A stretch of DNA of 64,000 nucleotides, taken from positions 682,001-746,000 of the forward strand of contig NC_083394.1 of NCBI RefSeq assembly GCF_030864355.1. The letters run 5' to 3'. The position numbers and the translations under genes are program-made. Below are positions 4,788-52,900 of this stretch, piece after piece (the stretch's first letter is position 1; each line of letters starts with the position of its first letter). The notes below the pieces were generated by a model. It saw nothing but the letters and a program-made list of their open reading frames with translations, did no database searches and was not told the origin of the DNA. This stretch comes from Cutaneotrichosporon cavernicola. Its lineage: Eukaryota; Basidiomycota; Tremellomycetes; Trichosporonales; Trichosporonaceae.

Positions 4788-7116
4788 ATGGCTGGGACGA
4801 CGCGGCATTCAACTTCGGAGCCTCTCCTTCCCTCTCCACCCGAGTCGCTCAATGGTGACGAGAGCCGAGTTGGCTACGCTGTCTTAGACCTGCCGCTCGG
4901 CGACATCAAGAGCGACTCGCGTTTACGGGGCCACGCGCTGCTCTACAGCGTGTCCGTCTTCCTCTCAATTGGCGTGTGGCTGTTTGGGTAAGTGCGCGCG
5001 TGGTACCTACGTGACACTCCGCTCACACCAGCTATGATCAAGGGTACGTGGATGCGGTGCAGTTGACGCGCAGCGCTGAACGCACAGAGTCATGTCTGGT
5101 GAGTGCCGCCGGCAATGGCATCACGTGCTGACGTCCAGGCATCATCACTGGGCCCTACTTCAAGTGAGTCTCCGCGCTTGCATTGCTGACGCCCAGGGCA
5201 TATTGTACGTCGACGCGCTAGTGGTGGTGGCGAGGGACTAACTTGCAGTCAATCAGCCGACGGCCACACAGATCGGAAAGTGAGTGGCAGTTATTGGCGC
5301 TCCACTGACATACAGCATGGTCGCCGTGCTCGAGATTGGAGCATTCAGTTGGTTCTGTGTGGGTGGAGACGCTGATCAAAGTCACTTCACTCCTCGCCGC
5401 CCACCTCGCCGACAAATACGGCCGCCGTTGGACGATGCGCACTGGTGCAATCTTCTTCTCCATTGGCGGCGTCTTCCAGACCTTTTGCACAGGATATCGT
5501 GTCATGGTGTTTGGCCGCTTCGTGTCTGGCTGTGGCGTCGGTATGCTTAGCATGGTCGTGCCCATCTATCAGGCAGAGAGTGAGTGGACTCTTTAAGCAG
5601 TTGCTGACGTCCAGTCTCGCCTGCCGACCACGTGAGCTATTCAAACGCGCAACGCAGCTGACAGCAGCGAGGCTTCCTCGGCGCTCTCGAGTTCACGGGC
5701 AACATCGTGGGCTACGCGTCGTCCGTGTGGATTGACTACGCGTCTAGCTTCATCGAGTCACATTGGTCATGGCGCGGACCACTGTCCATCCAGGTATTCG
5801 GCGGTATGATCCTCGCCATTGGGTCGCTCGTCTGCCCAGAGTCGCCGCGGTACCTCATCGACAAGGACCAGGACCTCCAGGGCCTGACAGTCATCGCCGA
5901 CTTCCAGGGCAAGCCGCTCGACGACTTCAAGGTCCTGGAGGAATACAAGGAGATCCGCGACGGTGTTCTGGCAGACGTGAGCTGTAATGACGCCTGAAAC
6001 TGACGACAGCGTGCTGTCGGAGATCGGTCCTACAAGGCGCTCTGGCAGCGCTACCGCGGACGAGTCCTCATCGCTATGAGCAGTCAGCTCTTCGCGCAGC
6101 TGAACGGTATCAACGTCATCTCATACTACGCCCGTGAGTTGTCTCACGTCATTCATCGCTGACTTCAGCTCTTGTAAGTACAGCACCATTCGTTTCCTTC
6201 CTGAGGTACTGACCACCGCGCATTACAGGTGTTCGAGCGTGAGTCTATTTGCATGTGCGTGTGCTGACTTCCCAGAGGCTGGCTGGATTGGTCGTGACGC
6301 AATCCTTATGACTGGAATCAATGCTCTGTTCTATGTCGCGTCTTCAATCCCACCGTGAGTCGCCTTCCCTCAGTATGACGCTCGCAGCGAAACTAACCTC
6401 AGGTGGTGGCTCACTGACGCTCTCGGCCGCCGCCCCATCCTTCTCTGTGGTGCAATCGCGATGGCAATCGCGTTGACGTCGACCGGTTGGTGGATCTACA
6501 TCGACCAGGCCATCACGCCCAAGGCGGTCGTCGCGTGCGTGATTATCTACAACGCGGCCTTCGGCATGAGTTGGGGCCCTATCCCATGGCTCTACCCTCC
6601 TGAGATCATGCCGCTTCCCTTCCGCGCCAAAGGTGTGTCGCTATCGACGGCGACCAACTGGCTCGCCAACTACTGGGTTGGAATGACCACCCCTGTCTTC
6701 CAAGAGATCATGGGCTGGAGGCTGTACATCATGCACGCCTGCTTCTGTGTGCTCTCTTTCATCCTCGGTGAGTCTCACTGTGTCGCGCTTGCTGACGAGC
6801 AGTCTACTTCCTCTACCCCGAGACGCGTGGGGTGCCGCTTGAGGAGATGGACAAGCTCTTTGGCGACGAGGGAGAGGGAAGTGACGATGACGACGACGAC
6901 TGTGCAGCGTCCGAGACGTCGTCCTTGATGCCCAGCCAGCGACGGGGACACTCGCCGTCAGGCCTCCCGACTGCACGGACCTCGTCGCCTATGCCGGTGC
7001 GCGCGGACAACTCTCTCCTGGGTCGCGTGACCCACGCGTTTTCGAACGCGTTTGGCGGCCGGCCCGGAAGCCCTACCCCGCGTGGAAGATACAACGCCAT
7101 CCCCAGTGATCAATAG
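4788..7116 (+). CDS. MFS sugar (hexose-type) transporter split into micro-exons
   Basis: Proton-coupled or facilitative sugar transporter of the major facilitator superfamily, plasma membrane, 12 membrane spans. Splicing gives the family landmarks: LFGYDQGVMSGIITGPYF in TM1, ADKYGRRWTMRTGAIFF, GRFVSGCGVGMLSMVVPIYQ, AEISPADHRGFLGALEFTGN, CPESPRYLID, QLFAQLNGINVISYYAPLVF, GRRPILLCGA, WGPIPWLYPPEIMPLPFRAK and PETRGVPLEEMDKLFG. Exons are 4788-4987, 5032-5043, 5088-5098, 5139-5163, 5197-5204, 5249-5279, 5316-5347, 5382-5579, 5615-5631, 5668-5976, 6010-6133, 6169-6173, 6229-6238, then from 6276 on with further small introns. Phases agree through every one I summed. The long acidic/Ser-rich C-terminal tail ends at a stop at 7114-7116; an alternative splice could extend it to 7305. 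Substrate cannot be told from sequence. Confidence 0.9.
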
Positions 7117-7162
7117 GAACTCGCGAGTGAGCTTACTTCCTACAACACTCAGCTGACAGCAG

Positions 7163-7549: not shown

Positions 7550-9213
7550 ATGCCCGCACCATCGGACGCAACGTCCCTCGCGGATGCACAGTGAGCTCAA
7601 CCAATCCAATATCAGCTGACATCAGGAAACGTGTACGTACACACTCTCCATGCACAGCGAAACCTAACCCCAGGCTCCCGCCGACCACAAGGCAGTCATC
7701 GAGTTCTTGCGCGGCAAGAACGGGCCCAAAGTCCGGCGCGGCGTGCTGAACGGCAAGCGCGTCGACTTCTTCAAGGGTGAGTGAGCCAGCCGGATCTCGT
7801 TGTCAAACACCGTTGGGACGCGAGCATGGCCACGCCCCACTCTGCCCGCCATCGACGAGCAGCGTCGATGACGCAGCATTGTGGCCACACGCGGTGTGCG
7901 GATTCGTTGTTCGCCGTGGCCGAGGGTCCCAAGCGCAGAATAATCAACAAGGGTGCTGACGACCAGGCAAGACGGCGGTCCGCACGCTCATGGGTCCAGC
8001 GTACCAGAAGCTCGGGAAGAAGGTGCCGCCCGTCACGAGTGAGGAGGAGGCTGCGGCGCTCATTACCAAGTGCCTTCCCTAGTGAGTTGCTTCGCCACTG
8101 CCAAGAGATCTCACTTCCGGTCGAAGAGAGCGGCATTGGGATTCCGCGTCAATGTTCCTGCTGGCGGAGGTGTAGTTATGGGTGATCCATCGCGTCGTTC
8201 TTGCCCATAGTCCGTTTGGCTCTGCGCCATGCCCGTCCTTCATCGTTACCGGCAACTGCTACATGCAGGTTACCCGAACAGCAGCTCTTCCATCCACTGA
8301 GTGCTTCCATGCCTGTCACCGGCCCGATGACGCTTCAAGCTTCGGGTGATCTACAAGCTTCCTCGCCCATTCCCACCGCGCGATCTGCGTTCTTGGGCTT
8401 GATTTCTCGTTCCCCGATTCCTCGCCTCCGTCTTGGCCTTCTTGTTCCATCCTGGCGCTCACGACTAACCCCAGTGCCTACTTCCTTCGTGTCGACCGCC
8501 TCAACCCCAACCCGCCCATCCCCAGCGGCATGCCCAAGCCCCTCAACCTCAGCCAGCAGCAGCAGTTCGACTCTGCAGGCTACTACAGCTGGTTCTACGA
8601 GGGCTCGCCCTTCTGGAACATTGTCGGCGGTATCGCCATGGTGGCCGTGATGCTCGCGGGCGTCATGTTCCCCCTCTGGCCCGTCAAGCTCCGCATCGGC
8701 GTCTGGTACCTCTCGGTCGGCGCGCTCGGTCTGGTCGGCCTCTTCATCGTCATTGCCATTATCCGCCTCATCCTCTGGTGCATCACCAAAGTCTCCATGG
8801 CCAAGGCCATCTGGATCTTCCCAAATCTGTTCGAGGACGTCGGGTTCGTTGACTCGTTCATCCCCGCATGGGAGTGGGACGAGCCGAAGAAGAAGCGTCT
8901 CCGCAAGGTCGGCGAGAAGCGCAAGAGGAAGGAGAAGGACGTCACCGAGGAGAAGGCTCCTGCAGCTGCTGCGCCGCCCAGCGCCATCCCCTCGGCCATT
9001 GGATCCGCTGACCCCGCGGCCGCGGCTGCTGAGGCTGCCCGCGCCCCAACTCCCGGCAACGCCGACACCGCGTCTGGCGTTGCTAGCTCGCCCGCTGCCC
9101 CAACGGCCGCCGCTGCTTCCACGGCTACCACTACCGCGACCGCGCCGCCCGCGACTAACCCCACGCCGCGCAGCCGGAAGGCTGCGACGGTTGAGGAGAT
9201 CGAGGACGAGTAG
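7550..9213 (+). CDS. SEC62: ER protein translocation subunit Sec62
   Basis: Sec62, part of the Sec61/Sec62/Sec63 translocon for post-translational import into the endoplasmic reticulum. Exons are 7550-7590, a 7-nt exon 7626-7632, 7674-7776, 7967-8081 and 8475-9213, giving a 334-residue protein with consistent phase. The N-terminal cytosolic domain has KAVIEFLRGKNGPKVRRGVL and RVDFFKGKTAVRTL. The central part has the conserved YYSWFYEG, two membrane spans around the lumenal FPLWPVKLRIGVWYLSVGAL turn, and FWIFPNLFEDVGF-like AIWIFPNLFEDVGFVDSF. A basic KKKRLRKVGEKRKRKEKD segment and a low-complexity Ala/Pro/Thr tail follow. The 3-nt context ACAACAATG supports the start. Introns of 190 and 393 nt are long for this genome. 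No signal peptide, as expected. Confidence 0.92.
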
Positions 9214-18690: not shown

Positions 18691-20678
18691 ATGTCATCGC
18701 CGGAGAGCGACATCCACCAGGCGGGGAGGGAGTACCCCCGCGGGGCGAGAGGCAGTGTCGTTGGCCTTGTAAAGCGCTGTAAGTCTCCCGGCCTCATTCG
18801 TTCTGACAAACAGATGCGAAAATGGAGGAGCGATACCACCACGACCTCGCCCTCAGCTCGGGATTCAGCGAGTATCATATGGGTGACGATGATGTCGAGC
18901 GTGACGGCGCGGGTCCGAGCTACGGCACGACTACAGCGCACGGCCACCGGCGCCGGAGCGACGTCGGGCCCCGCGATGTGGATGAGAATGCGCCGCTGCT
19001 CCGCAAGCCGTCGCGCGTCGATAACATGGCCGCCAACATCAACGTACACGGCGGCTCGAGTACCGACGGCCAGACCTTGTTCAACTCGATCGGCGTGCTG
19101 ATTGGCATCGGTCTGCTGAGTATGCCGCTCGCGTACTCGTACGCTGGGTGGATTGGGGGCACGATCCTGGTCGTAGCGTTTTCCGCAATTACATGCCACA
19201 CGTAAGTAACCCGATGGACGTGCTGACACCAGGGGCAAGCTCCTCGCGCGCCTGCTGTACGCGGACGTGTCGCTGGGAAGCTATACCGATATTGGAATGG
19301 CGGCATTTGGTCCGCGGGCCGGCGGCGCGATCCAGGTCCTCTTCTGCACCGAGCTGTTTGCATTCGGCGTCGCGCTTACCGTGCTCTTCGGTGACTCGAT
19401 GAACGCCGTCGTCCCCTACTACTCGGCTGAGACTTGGATGGCGCTCGGCTTCTTCGTCGTCCTTCCGACAACGTTTATGCCGCTGAGGTGGCTCGCCGTG
19501 CCCTCTGTCCTCTCGACAGCGGCAGTTGTCGTGCTCATTGGCATTATCGCGTTCGACGGCCTGTGGAAGAAACACGCACCCGGCTCACTGCACGAGCCGA
19601 TGGAGACCCGCTTCGGGCCCGATTTGAAGATGATGAACTGGGTCGGTGGTGTCGGCCTCATCCTCGCCGGCTATGGCGGACACGCAGTCATCCCCGCGAT
19701 CGCAAAGGACGCACGTAACCCGGCTGCCATTGACCGCCTCTTCAACATCTCCTTCACTGTCGCCGGCGCCGTCGCTGTCATCACCGGCGCAATGGGATAC
19801 CTCATGATGGGCGACGACGTCTCGGACGAGATCTCAAAGGACATGATGAACCCCAAAATGAAGTACCCCAAGGCGATCAACAACGTCGCCCTGTGGATGA
19901 TCGTCCTCGTCCCTCTGACCAAGTACGGACTCACCAGTCGGCCGTTGCACGTCGCTTGCGAGGGCTTCCTCGGCATTGCGCCCTCTGCAGCTCAGGTAGC
20001 GGCAGACGAGGCTGAGATCGTGGGCGAGGCGCCAGCTCCTCCTCGCATCAACGTTGAGGCACCTGATGCGTCGGCTTCCGGCCACCGTCTCCGCCGCGTC
20101 TCGTTCGCCGTCACGTCGGCCCTCACGCGTATCGGCGAGAGCGACTACATTAACAATGACGATGAGGAGTGCGAGCAGCCCGACGACCACCACCACCACC
20201 ACCATCATCACCGGAAGAGCGTCGCGCCTGCGACTCCGACCTCGGCTGAGGGCGGCAAGGGTGTCGCCCGTGCTATCATGCGCATCGTCATCACCATCGC
20301 CGCCACGGTCGTCGCGATCGTCCTCCCGGGTTTCGAAAAGGTCATGGCCTTCCTCGGCAGTAAGTCTGCACCCAACCTATTCTAGACGCGCGTTGCTCTG
20401 AGATGCTGACTGTGCGCGTAGATTTCTCCGCCTTTTTGATTTGCATTATTCTCCCTGTGAGTTGACCGAGGATTGATTGCAGCTGCCAATGTATCACGTG
20501 CTGATGCCAGATCGGCTTCTACCTCCGCCTGGCGCCGACTGTCCTCGGAGTCAAGGACAGCCCGGCGACCCGCTGGCAGAGGACCCTCCACCTCGTCATC
20601 CTCGTCATCAGCACCGTACTCATGATCATGGGCACCATCTGGGCATTTATTCCCGGCACCGGCCGGGGCGGGGATTAG
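18691..20678 (+). CDS. Vacuolar amino-acid transporter, Avt1-like (AAAP family)
   Basis: Amino-acid/auxin-permease-family transporter resembling yeast Avt1, which imports neutral amino acids into the vacuole using the proton gradient. The start is the ATG at 18691 (MSSPESDIHQAG). A long hydrophilic N terminus with the DENAPLLRKPS dileucine-like motif precedes TM1 (LFNSIGVLIGIGLLSMPLAY), which carries the typical GIGxLSMP. Further spans include YTDIGMAAFGPRAGGAIQVL, WVGGVGLILAGYGGHAVIPA and GYLMMGDDVSDEI. A long cytosolic loop before the last spans contains an acidic patch and eight consecutive His codons (20188-20211). The 3' exons give NFSAFLICIILP, then IGFYLRLAPTVLGV and the last span ending IPGTGRGGD at 20678. 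Exons include 18691-18779, 18815-19201 and a long one from about 19233. Confidence 0.88.
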
Positions 20679-40119: not shown

Positions 40120-42974
40120 CTAGTTCGCAAACTGGTTGTAGTTCCACCCTGGAATATCTCCCATAAGATTCACAAAGCCATTCGGTGTGCCACCTGGGCC
40201 CATGTTGTTGGCGTTTAGGCCGGCGAGCAGCTCCGAGAGCGGACTCTGTGGGCCGTCAGGCATCTTGGTTGTCATGTCACACATCGCCGCCTGGGCTTGC
40301 GCAGCCGCCGTCTGATCGAAGAACTCGAAGACGGATGGATCATAGCCTCCGCCATCTTGTCTCCCGAGGGTTTGCTGCATGTTTTGTGGCTGGAGATAGT
40401 CGGGAGTGAGGTGTGTCGTACTGGCGCTGCCAGATGAGTAGGTTGCCGCATCCATCGCGTCTATGCTTTCAGGTGTCCGCCCCAGGGAAGTGGGCACCGA
40501 CGGAGACGTCGTAGCCGTACCAGAGACAGAGGCCTCCGAAGATCGCGTTCCCATGTCCGTGTCCGAGTTGGTGCCCGGAGTCTTGACGCTGGCTGAAGCG
40601 CTTGGGATAGATCCCTTAACGTCGGCAAGGCAAATCTCCTTCATGCTCATCATATCCTGGCGACCCTCCTCGTGCATCTTGACATGCGAAGCAATGAAGA
40701 CTTGGAGGTGGATACCGAGCGCATGCTTCTCGGCGTAGCGGCCGAGCAGGCCGTTGATGCTAATGAGGTCCGCGCGCCAGCGCATAGCGAGCGCGTATTG
40801 TTCACTCTTACTTGCGCGGCAGGCAAACTTGCTAACGATCCGCCCAACGGAGAACAGCGAGAACGCCAGCATTGGGGTGAACAACATCGTAATGTCCAGT
40901 TGGGAAGGGACGAGGTGCACGATGCCCATAATCCGCTCAAAAGCGTTTTGGACTGCCGCAATCGCCCCCATGTTCGGTCCCTCCTCGTTGCCCCACTCCA
41001 TGAATGGCTCGTGGAGGAGCATGAGAGCGAGGTTCGGGAAAACGTGGACACTCAACAGGTCGGCAGTGAATTGGCCCATGTTGCCCGAGTCGATGAGACG
41101 GTAGACATTCTTGAGCTCGGGTGGAAGGTGCGATTGGAACGCATCAATATCATTGACTAGCTTGAGGAACGCTGGCAGCTTCATGCCCTCGTACGCGTCA
41201 CCTGGTTGGACGACACGCTGGTTCCAATCGTACACCCAGCTCGCAATACGGCCGAGGAGCAAGGACGACTTGACAACAAGAACGAAGGGATCGGGAACAG
41301 GGTGGTAGACAAGTACGTTGGGGTCGTGCGCGGTCTGCGGGTTCTCCTTCATGTATCCAGTTTGGTCGACGCGCTGGTTCCACTCGTTACTGCTTGTCGG
41401 CAAGCGAATGAAGATTTCGTCAAGAGTGAGGCTGGATGCCCAGCATGCGTTGCTCGCGAAGCTCGCCTCGAGAATATATGCTATCCATACGGTTGCGACG
41501 CGCTCCTCGCGTTCGCGGTCACTCTCGGGGGCATCCATGAGGGGAGGCTTGTCTGCCTTGCGCAGATTCCGGGTGGAGATCTCGAGCGCCTTGATGATGC
41601 GACCGGCGAGGGCCCCGGTCATCCAGCCGCGCAGAGCCAGGCCGGCATTGAGGTAGATTTGGCTCAGAATGATCTGGCGTGAGCTCGAGAACAAGGTCTT
41701 CCGCTCACATGTGCCCGGACAACGTCGAACAGCGGCTGGCCATGGAGCATGCCACTGACAAGTGTCTTGTAGCGTATACAGCGCTCGGCGGCCTCGCACT
41801 GGGCCGTCGCAAAGTCACTCGCCGTCTCCAGGTCCATCCCGGATTCAATATGCGCGCGGCGAATGTCGTCGATGTCCAGCGGATTGAGGGTGTTGACACA
41901 GGCAGTGTGCGGAGCGGCCGCAGCGCAGATCGCATGGAGCAGCTCGGGGGCAGGGAAATCGGGGTGGTTGGGTGCCAGCCGGATGCGGGAGAGGAGGGTT
42001 GCGCGGTGAATCATGCGGGGCAGCTGCGGCTCGCTCTGGAAGAACGTCTCAATGCTGGTCCGTTAGCGGGCCGTGCGGATATTGAGATCGAGAGGTTACG
42101 TACAGATGTTCCAGAATTGCTGGGTTACGTCAGCAGCAGATCCTTAAACGAAACGTCGTCAAGACTCACCTGGCGACGGCAAATTCCTGGGCCAGTTGTT
42201 CGGCAGCATAAGCAGGTTGGAGAAGTCGAACGACTGGAACAGGCCAGGCTCGCCGGCTTCTATGCTGAGAATGGGTGCGGCAGTGGACGGCTGAGAGTCG
42301 AAACCCGCAAGCGACGCAGGGAAGGCCTGCATCGGTATGGTCCACGCAGCATTCCCGTTCAGCACCTTGGTGTCGATCATGGGAATGTTCTCTGGCGATT
42401 CCGACTTGGAACGGTTCAAGGAGCCGTTTGGGATAATCTCGTTGGTCGAGAGGTCAGCCAGACGTGCCTCGAGCTCCGCTGACCGTCAGTTGCTGGGACG
42501 ACGACATCAGCTCACCGATGCGCGCCTTCAGTGTGTCACGCTCCTCAGCGCCACGGCGCTCCTTCTCACGCTGGAAGTTGCGCTCGCCGCCACCCACGGC
42601 TTGCTTCTTGAGCTTGGCTGCCGACGTCGAAGCCGAGCCCAAGCTCACACGTTTCCGCTCTGGCTCGGCCTCGAGGATCACATCGTCGTTGTCAGCGTAT
42701 GTGCACACCAGTGCCGGCGACCGGCTCTTGTTGCGCTGGGCGGAACGGAGGGCGTGTGCATGCGAGCGCAAGCATGGGTTACACGTCGGCCGCACACCAT
42801 CGCACTTGACTTTGCGACGCTTGCACTACACGTCAGCCGAGGGAAACAGGGGATGACGGGGCCCGGTTGTGGAGCCGAGGTGACGCGACTCACCTGAAGG
42901 CAAGCATGGTTACGCTTGAGTGGCGCCAACGTTTCATCCTCGAGGATGTCATCGTACGGAGGGGTCGCTTGCAT
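40120..42974 (-). CDS. Zn2Cys6 fungal transcription factor
   Basis: Gal4-type regulator with a fungal-specific transcription-factor (Fungal_trans) middle domain. The start ATG at 42974 gives MQATPPYDDILEDETLAPLK then RNHACLQ, spliced to CKRRKVKCDGVRPTCNPCLR. The cluster has C-x2-C-x6-C-x5-C-x2-C spacing, with the sixth Cys in SPALVCTY after a loop of about 22 residues, a form seen in Tremellomycetes. An alpha-helical region (ERNFQREKERRGAEERDTLK) follows. The large central domain includes RCIKYKTL-type and DLLSVHVFPNLALMLLHEPF segments and FSVGRIVSKFACRASKSEQY. The C terminus is Ser/Thr/Gln/Asn-rich, ending GDIPGWNYNQFAN at 40120, typical of an activation region. Target genes unknown; it is divergent from the amidase gene 814 bp away, which could be a target. 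Confidence 0.85.
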
Positions 42975-49930: not shown

Positions 49931-52900
49931 ATGCCACCCAGTCCAAAGCATGGACAGGTGGGTAACGCTCCGGAGAAGAAGAAGCGTCGTGAGTGAATGT
50001 CGATACGGTGTCTTGTTCCTCCACTCCCTGACAAGGCGGTGTTGACCTCCACCCAGGCCAGAATGTTGCTTGCGACTCGTGTCGTCTGCGTCGTGTCAAG
50101 TAGGTCGCAATCATTCCCCTGATCTGACGCCTCAAGGTGCGACATGCTTGCACTCCTCACTCCGGCCGACTCGACACGCGTCATGCCGCCCCTTCCAGTC
50201 CTCGTTCGTCAGAACCCCGACGTGTCGTGCTCCAACTGTATCTCCAAAGGCATTCGATGCACTACCAATCAGATTGTCAACCCGTCCAAGCCCAACAAGG
50301 GAGGCAAGCGTATCGAGGAGGCCAAGAAGATGTATGGCAGTGAAGGCTTGTTCACAACCTTGACAGGTCCTTCTGCACCCACAACGCCTTCACTCACGTA
50401 CACTGGCCCTCAGCCCCCGCCAATCCGCCACGACTCGGTAGCCACCGCCCGAACGTCGGCATCCAGTGCGTCCTCGTCGTCCTACGACTTGACAGACGTC
50501 CCCACAACCGTCGACCTTGCCAACACCGGTTTCCTCTTCACCACCATTCAGTACCCGTACTCTGGAACCGATCTACTCAATCAGGGTACATCACCCACAG
50601 GAAGTACCTGCGAACTCGGGCCGGCTTGGTCGACAGAGTGGTCCAGTAACGCTGTCAGCACCCCATACGGCACTCCCTTCGCTGGCGGCATGTTTGATAT
50701 GACCGCCCAGGCGCCCGGTGAGCCACAGATGTTTGACACCTTCATGTTATCACCTGGTGCCAACGCCCCTTATCCACCGGCGCAAGCATTGTTGTACGCC
50801 GCTCCCCCATCATTGTACGTCTCATCTGCAGACTCTGTGCCCGCTGTACCCACCTTGCCCGACCCTCCTCCGTTGTCCCTTGGTAGTACGCTCGATGGTG
50901 CCTCAGGCGCGAAAGACCCTTCAGCTTTCCCATCACTGGTCTCCGACGGAAACTTGGACACACGCAGTGACCACCCTTTTCGGATCTTGTCCTCGGGTGA
51001 CAATTCCCCGGTCCCCCCGCCAGCACAGTTACCTTCCTCATCCGTTGGCCTCCCAGCTGTGACTTCGGTTTATCCGACTCCATCACTGCCGACGAAACGC
51101 TCGGCCTCGATTGGCCCTTCCCAGATTGTAGGCAAGAAGCGCCACCACGCCGATGACGACGTCCTAGACCTTGTGCGCACCTACGGACAGATTGTACGCG
51201 ACTACGGGGACAATGCTGAGACGGGCCCTTGGGCGCTCTGGGCCAAATCCAAGGACAAGGAGGACAAGATTATCCGCTGGAGCCGCAGCAACAGCGTTGG
51301 CGACGAGCTTGCAAGCCGCGCTCTTGGCTCCGAACTCAGCCGTGAGCTGGTCAAGGTCTATTTCTCGTCAGTCCATTTGACGCTCCCTGCAATCAGCCCA
51401 GAGACATTCTACAGGTTGTGGAAACAAGCTGGTGAGCGTTCTGACCGCATGAGCCCCGCACAGGAAGTCTTGTGCGCGGTGATTGAGGCCTGGGCGGCCC
51501 GATTCTCAGACCACCCGGTCGTGAGTTGGCCCACAGAGTTGGCCCAGTGATGAACGCGGTTGCTGACAGTCCAGGTTCTGGGTATGAATCCCAATGAACA
51601 GCATACAGGTCCAAAATGTGAGTTGGCACCGTTTCGCTGAGTTTGCGCGAATTGAAGCTAACAGCAGTAATTCTCGCGACAGAATCCGTGAGCTTTAAGG
51701 TGTTGTGTTTCTCACGCTAACTATAGGACCACAGTGGTTCATTAATTGTAGATCAATCGCATTATGGACAGAAGCGCCTACGTGTGTGCTTTGCACTCGT
51801 GGAGCGCGCTCGCAAGCTCATTGACCAACATGGAATTCTTCGTAAACCAAGTTTGACAGGCGTACAGGCCCTTGCACTGTTCACGCAACTTCAGCACATG
51901 ACAGATCACAACCCCGAGGCTCCAGAACATCTAATGGAAAGTGGGTCCCGCCAACAGGAGCTAATGCTAACAGTAGGCGAGATGCTTCATACCATACTGG
52001 TTCAGCAACTTCGCCGGCTTGACGGTTGCTGGGTACCTGAAGGCAGCATCCCTATTGTCAAGGATGACGGCCCAGAGACCCAGCAAGAACAGCGGATCAA
52101 GCTGCGACGTCTGTGGTGGACTGTATTTATTGCCGATTCTTTCTGGGCCGCGGGAACTTGCTCCACACCTGTTGTGTAAGGCCTCTTCCTCTGCCGTTGC
52201 TAACAAATTAGCCCAGAAGAGGAAGTCAAGGCATCGCTTGCCTGGCTCGATGCCATCGACCCGAGGCACATGCCGTCCACCTTCGATTCTATTTCTTTTT
52301 TTATGGGCCATTTTCATCGAGTGTCCACTATTACCCGCATGGTCGCGTACAAGCTCTGCCTACCCAGCAAGCGACCTGGACGTGTCGATGTCGATGAGTT
52401 TTGTAGCGACGCCCGTGTCATTTGGAGAAATGTGCGAGACCTGTACCAGGACATCAACTCGAAGGTCGAGGACGTTCTCTCCATCGCCAAAGAGGATATT
52501 CTCGGCTTCTCGCCGGTGCATGTGGGTTTCTTCAATGTCCGTAGCTAACATTGCAGCAATTCTGCAGTCTTCGTCTTGCTGCCACCTACATCCTCCTGAT
52601 CATGCAGCAAGTTATCCAGCAGCTGCTCGACTTCCGCAAGCGCCTCCATGAGGCGTACGTGTATGATTCCACCGTCCCGCTGCAGGCGCAGCCAGAGGGA
52701 ACTCGTGTGTCGGCCTTGAACGAACTTCATGCTCAGAGCATCGACATCCTTCTCGCCAACGCGCGTGCACAGGCCCCAATGTTCGACACGCTCCTTCCAA
52801 CGGGCTTCATGCAGGGTGCCTCGATGCTTGCTCGCGTGTTGCTCGCCGTGGCCCAGTTCCTCTCGGAGGTGCCAACCAACGAGCAGGGGTATCCGAACCA

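Follow-up and report, generated by a model that had tools for sequence, protein, structure and literature searches.

A gene of Cutaneotrichosporon cavernicola at 4788–7116 on the + strand of the window, the whole 64-kb stretch of DNA analyzed here, is split by 15 introns into 16 exons and encodes a product of 579 residues. Very probably, this is one MFS sugar porter gene whose seven exons of 5–25 nt are joined constitutively by intron-defined splicing, with the 5- and 10-nt exons spliced stepwise. We describe the exon model, its splice signals, its fit to homologues, and the presence of the same residues in the proteins of most relatives. The host genome comprises 20.2 Mb in 8 contigs, with approximately 58% GC in 16 sampled stretches; the published C. 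cavernicola assemblies are given as 20.20–20.24 Mb with 58.5% GC (PMC10568926).

Exon structure of the sugar porter gene

All 15 introns are bounded by GT..AG, are 33–55 nt long (mean 40.5 nt), and have consistent phases. An earlier note on this DNA had proposed nine small exons of 12, 11, 25, 8, 31, 32, 17, 5, and 10 nt, flanked by GT..AG introns of about 33–55 nt in agreeing phases, and every coordinate and length that it gave proved exact. Based on the usual micro-exon limit of 27–30 nt for an internal exon, seven exons of 5–25 nt qualify, and the 31- and 32-nt exons are micro-exons only at a 51-nt limit, which also exists. Near the 5' end, six exons of 8–32 nt (exons 2–7) directly follow one another. 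In the list below, omission costs were obtained with a profile of 93 proteins by forbidding each small exon in turn.

4788..4987, + strand: exon 1, 200 nt, contains the start codon; its N-terminal residues align with P0001 and P0002
5032..5043, + strand: exon 2, 12 nt, G-YDQ-G, with Asp69; omission costs 37.3 half-bits
5088..5098, + strand: exon 3, 11 nt, G-VMS-G; omission costs 31.5 half-bits
5139..5163, + strand: exon 4, 25 nt, G-IITGPYF-K; omission costs 69.7 half-bits
5197..5204, + strand: exon 5, 8 nt, K-AY-F; omission costs 69.8 half-bits
5249..5279, + strand: exon 6, 31 nt; omission costs 48.1 half-bits
5316..5347, + strand: exon 7, 32 nt; omission costs 90.8 half-bits
5348..5381, + strand: intron 7, donor GTTGGT (the sole non-GTRMGY donor of 15), AAG acceptor
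5382..5579, + strand: exon 8, 198 nt; recovered by profile alignment
5615..5631, + strand: exon 9, 17 nt, I-SPADH; omission costs 72.9 half-bits
5668..5976, + strand: exon 10, 309 nt; recovered by profile alignment
6010..6133, + strand: exon 11, 124 nt, ends SYYA-P; recovered by profile alignment
6169..6173, + strand: exon 12, 5 nt, CTCTT, P-L; omission costs 11.7 half-bits on protein alone, 55.0 with splice signals
6229..6238, + strand: exon 13, 10 nt, VFE-Q; omission costs 11.7 half-bits on protein alone, 51.8 with splice signals
6276..6354, + strand: exon 14, 79 nt; recovered by profile alignment
6403..6767, + strand: exon 15, 365 nt; recovered by profile alignment
6803..7116, + strand: exon 16, 314 nt, stop at 7114–7116; C-terminal Q as in eight aligned relatives

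The frame of the joined exons is open across 579 codons, with no frameshift or stop, and the joined protein carries both FGYDQGVMSGIITGPYF and SYYAPLVFEQAGW intact. The Pfam family PF00083 matches at 353.8 bits versus a cut-off of 22.3, over profile positions 3–452 of 452; the predicted product is an MFS sugar porter, and the intact sugar carrier core that had been read in the joined exons stands. The best PDB sequence matches are STP10 (7aaq and 6h7d, E about 7e-52, aligned residues 57–495). In particular, Asp69, encoded by exon 2, is aligned with the Asp of FGYDLG in STP10, which we take to be the protonation site of that protein. STP10 is a relative at the protein level only and is silent on exon structure.

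The introns were recovered with a spliced profile-to-DNA alignment that charges the same cost for any GT..AG intron of 30–150 nt and uses no further splice information. The first profile comprised 93 proteins (P0026–P0120 minus P0030 and P0033), including the Tremellomycete Mrakia frigida (P0027) and 16 unnamed proteins, and the second comprised 76 named homologues, none of them Tremellomycetes by name. With both profiles, intron costs of 10 and 14 returned exactly the 15 introns; at a cost of 20, both kept 12 of the 15, and one other intron replaced the three around the 5- and 10-nt exons. On protein fit, omitting any one of exons 2–7 and 9 was penalized by 31.5–90.8 half-bits, versus only 11.7 half-bits for exon 12 or 13. 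As a chance control, dinucleotide shuffles were made region by region and scored by protein fit only. For the 5' cluster, no shuffle was as good with the 93-protein profile (0/300) or the 76-protein profile (0/300), and the 17-nt exon gave the same counts (0/300 and 0/300). For the 5- and 10-nt pair, 6/300 shuffles were as good with the 93-protein profile and 13/300 with the 76-protein profile; with the cleaner 76-protein profile, the protein-only support for this pair is therefore weaker. On protein fit alone, the pair comprises the weakest of the small exons and is only modestly better than chance.

Donor and branch signals, which the blind alignment did not use, concur with its introns. The donor GTRMGY is found in 14/15 introns versus 5/149 other GTs in the region, and the branch motif CTRAY in 13/15 introns versus 7/111 other AGs; in 12 of these introns, it lies 6–8 nt before the 3' end. 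Combined signal scores are lowest for intron 2 (2.1), intron 7 (5.4), and intron 1 (7.4). For signal-aware scoring of the 5- and 10-nt region, donor weights were taken from the 12 introns outside it, and branch and acceptor weights were set by hand; none of 1000 shuffles reached the real score (best 268.2 versus 303.8).

Small exons might also arise as an artefact of joining GT..AG introns to fit a protein, in which case the locus would be a pseudogene or would use other junctions. The exon ends indeed demand only AG and GT, and the best path through shuffled sequence contained an exon of at most 15 nt in 173 of 1000 cases. However, the independent recovery by profile, the shuffles, and signals that lie outside the information of the alignment all argue against an artefact, as does the uninterrupted frame, and we find this explanation hardly credible. 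Collectively, the exon model of the earlier note, recovered in full at two of three intron costs, with concordant signals and no equal among 1000 signal-scored shuffles of the 5- and 10-nt region, is confirmed as a reading of the DNA.

The stop at 7114–7116 is supported because eight aligned proteins (P0003, P0004, P0007, P0011, P0013, P0019, P0024, and P0033) also end in Q. The model of HIS471 (P0001), the nearest annotated relative at 97% identity, is extended at the C-terminus beyond the end of this protein. Starting 10 nt past the stop codon, a 36-nt stretch at 7127–7162 has a GTGAGC donor, CTGAC, and CAG, and is likely a 3' UTR intron. The HIS471 protein continues as if the acceptor of this stretch were joined to another donor.

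Small exons in the proteins of relatives

A set of 27 proteins, the best 25 matches plus P0030 and P0033, was classified at the small exons; all are named as Tremellomycetes except P0024 and P0033. The site SYYAPLVFEQAGW is intact in 16/27, six lack exactly PLVFE (P0001, P0007, P0013, P0018, P0019, and P0025), and five differ otherwise. The 5' cluster is also intact in 16 proteins, while three skip exon 2 (two of them exons 4 and 5 as well), one skips exons 3 and 4, four differ otherwise, and three are without the region. The clean gaps coincide with the exon borders of this gene, which suggests that the relatives showing them share introns at these borders. Additionally, the named homologues from outside the Tremellomycetes carry YYAPx[VI]FE in 75/76 and FG[YF]DQGVMSG in 74/76.

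The absence of PLVFE from some proteins raises the possibility that exons 12 and 13 are normally skipped together through removal of one 142-nt intron at 6134–6275, whether in the predominant mRNA or in an isoform. SYYA would then join QAGW in frame, and the transporter would be five residues shorter. Exactly such a form is found in the six proteins named above, including that of HIS471, whose model retains the residues of exons 2–7 and 9 and omits precisely exons 12 and 13. Moreover, the paper on HIS471 and C. spelunceum describes annotation using BRAKER with RNA-seq hints (PMC10568926). However, the same residues are kept in all but one of the 76 named out-of-clade homologues and in the 16 intact proteins, P0024 and P0033 included, and the 5- and 10-nt pair bears strong splice signals. 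The C. spelunceum model (P0002), from the same paper, contains both residues encoded by exon 12 before reading on (PLVS...), as if exon 12 had been spliced in but its donor GTAAGT ignored. This conflict between the two models at exons 12–13 resembles prediction errors and points to one as the source of the discrepancy. We therefore regard joint skipping as unlikely. A built-in switch seems more doubtful still: in-frame skipping of exon 2, with Asp69, or of exons 12 and 13 would yield near-full-length, transport-dead proteins and thereby tune sugar uptake. If so, the skipped forms in the databases (exon 2 in 3/27; exons 12 and 13 in 6/27) would be real isoforms, not prediction errors.

P0024 and P0033 are proteins from metagenome contigs and were compared as proteins only. 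P0033 (442 aa) carries ISPASH and SYYAPLVFEQ on a contig of at most 1398 nt. P0024 (382 aa, 90% identical) carries SYYAPLVFEQ, its contigs are at most 1366 nt long, and six introns would be possible only at an average of about 36 nt or less, versus 40.5 nt here. As the P0033 contig has no room for eight introns, it is cDNA or an intron-free gene, and the P0024 contigs are presumably of the same kind. The two proteins lend indirect support to inclusion of the tiny exons in mature mRNA. Furthermore, P0121, P0150, and P0164 show no break across the 5' cluster but appear to read into introns elsewhere; these may represent partly spliced RNA or relatives without the 5' cluster introns.

Several other proteins depart from the pattern. 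In the predicted protein P0026 (Rhizoctonia solani), FGYDQGQ and SEISPAEH are repeated where the 12-nt and 17-nt exons would lie, reflecting either a duplication of these small exons or an annotation error. P0017, P0022, P0023, P0025, and P0121 have other letters after FAQL, which suggests one extra intron in those relatives, absent here, and with it another small exon. P0233 reads GSVWVETLIKV, the letters of intron 7 (5348–5381) read through, and its adjoining exon has changes.

Splicing of the tiny exons and known micro-exon systems

In fungi, small introns are expected to be recognized by intron definition. The introns of this gene are short and bear strong signals in most cases, and short introns suit cross-intron recognition. 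From these features, we infer constitutive inclusion of the tiny exons in C. cavernicola, intron definition, and a stepwise order. Each 33–55-nt intron would be recognized as a unit across the intron, which would make exon length of little importance. All tiny exons would be joined constitutively, and the mature mRNA would contain CTCTT and GTGTTCGAGC. The 5- and 10-nt exons would require stepwise splicing, since a distance of 5 nt leaves no space for two spliceosomes; the removal of one neighboring intron would first fuse the tiny exon to another exon. The view of the earlier note, intron definition or stepwise splicing because a 5-nt exon cannot be exon-defined, is thus reasonable and fits the proposals set out in PMC8378409 and PMC8624252. 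Collectively, intron-defined, stepwise splicing of the tiny exons is likely.

The 5-nt element might instead be no true exon and belong to recursive splicing or to a twin intron (stwintron). In a recursive splice site, AG is followed immediately by GT, with nothing between. Here, AG and GT are separated by five bases that the frame requires, and treating 6134–6228 as one intron shifts the frame; the element was thus rejected as a zero-length recursive site. It does lie between two short introns, like the parts of nested introns (PMC12403724). Given the frame, we hold either form of this explanation to be highly improbable and retain the 5-nt element as an exon.

As for factors, the FF domain occurs in Prp40. 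Two loci with FF domains were found in the genome and none in 14 control genomes, the link to Prp40 being by domain only. SRRM_C (PF15230), a marker of the SRRM3/4 neuronal micro-exon programme, had no match in the genome, but it had none in the 14 control genomes either, so that the zero count is not a sign of absence. The PRP-40-dependent micro-exons of C. elegans and mouse cells are likewise too small for exon definition, and intron definition has been proposed for them; in contrast to the short introns here, many of these animal exons are flanked by long introns (PMC8378409).

Very small exons have been described before, including one of 1 nt (PMC4674806), one of 5 nt in plants (PMC8831610), and, in the basidiomycete Phanerochaete chrysosporium, P450 exons as short as 6 bp (PMC1184071). 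Among the small plant micro-exons (1–15 nt), rice Os08t0562700 has adjacent exons of 5 and 12 nt. As in the present gene, the plant exons are very small, conserved, not multiples of three, placed beside another micro-exon, and often missed in annotation, whereas they lie in other genes and were confirmed via RNA-seq and RT-PCR, the present ones being known from DNA and protein sequence (PMC8831610). P. chrysosporium is a basidiomycete with small introns, as here, but its P450 genes belong to another family, and the shortest exon given for them is 6 bp, compared with 5 nt and a six-exon run of 8–32 nt here (PMC1184071). Similarly, Xlr2 of Trichoderma virens combines a fungal micro-exon with sugar-related biology; it is, however, an ascomycete transcription factor with regulated inclusion reported, and the present gene is a basidiomycete sugar porter (PMC11121469). 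C. neoformans genes have an average of 5.7 introns of about 65 nt each (PMC5851062). Among the titles and abstract openings of open-licence literature, we found no report of micro-exons in this gene.

Collectively, the gene is a striking example of a phenomenon already known, namely, an intron-rich basidiomycete gene with conserved micro-exons that annotation handles poorly. Seven exons of 5–25 nt in one yeast gene offer a compact test of minimal exon size with short introns, as well as a test case for the order in which neighboring introns are removed. For annotation, several published models are without conserved transporter residues precisely at the tiny exons of this gene.

Paralogues, wider scans, and the SEC62 neighbor

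Among 19 paralogous loci in the genome (L002–L020, both strands read), 17 have 0–4 introns and internal exons of at least 38 nt throughout, which makes the present gene unusual among its relatives in the genome. L019 has seven introns and one 20-nt exon. The model of L016 has 13–14 introns, and its small exons measure 7, 13, and 22 nt; these small exons are unproved, and several donors are weak when the locus is modeled without splice signals. Several of the paralogue alignments are partial (L007 and L014) or weak (L018).

Motif counts covered both strands of the 20.2-Mb genome, with the pattern read backwards as control. CTGAC N2-10 CAG N1-15 GTRAGT occurred 101 times versus 60 in the control, and CTRAC N2-5 CAG N1-15 occurred 78 times versus 54. 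For CTGAC N2-5 CAG, the counts were 64 versus 36 at gaps of 1–15, 76 versus 46 at 16–30, and 104 versus 36 at 31–45. We rejected these counts as a genome-wide estimate of micro-exons because the control ignores chance donors 3' of real acceptors. Within the window, CTGAC N2-10 CAG N1-30 GTGAGT matched once, as did its backward version.

Of the nine small exons, a strict intron scan of the 64-kb window found six, namely those of 25, 8, 31, 17, 5, and 10 nt, and missed those of 12, 11, and 32 nt; it gave no candidates in two reversed controls. Elsewhere in the window, its candidates were 7 nt at 7626, 35 nt at 20422–20456 (+), 20 nt at 51668–51687 (+), and 16 nt at 42104–42119 (−).

The first of these candidates lies in a SEC62 gene at 7550–9213, where the 7-nt exon GAAACGT (7626–7632) is flanked by introns of 35 and 41 nt. 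This exon completes AQ-KR-AP, and the spliced product of 334 residues is 100% identical to the published C. cavernicola protein P0241; the published annotation must therefore include the 7-nt exon. Among 34 SEC62 relatives, AQKR is present in 27, a close variant in five, and neither in two, the exceptions being P0243, which is without the N-terminus, and P0265, which has other letters at precisely AQKR. On these proteins, the 7-nt exon is evidently conserved. In P0266, AQKR is present, and the sequence then departs.
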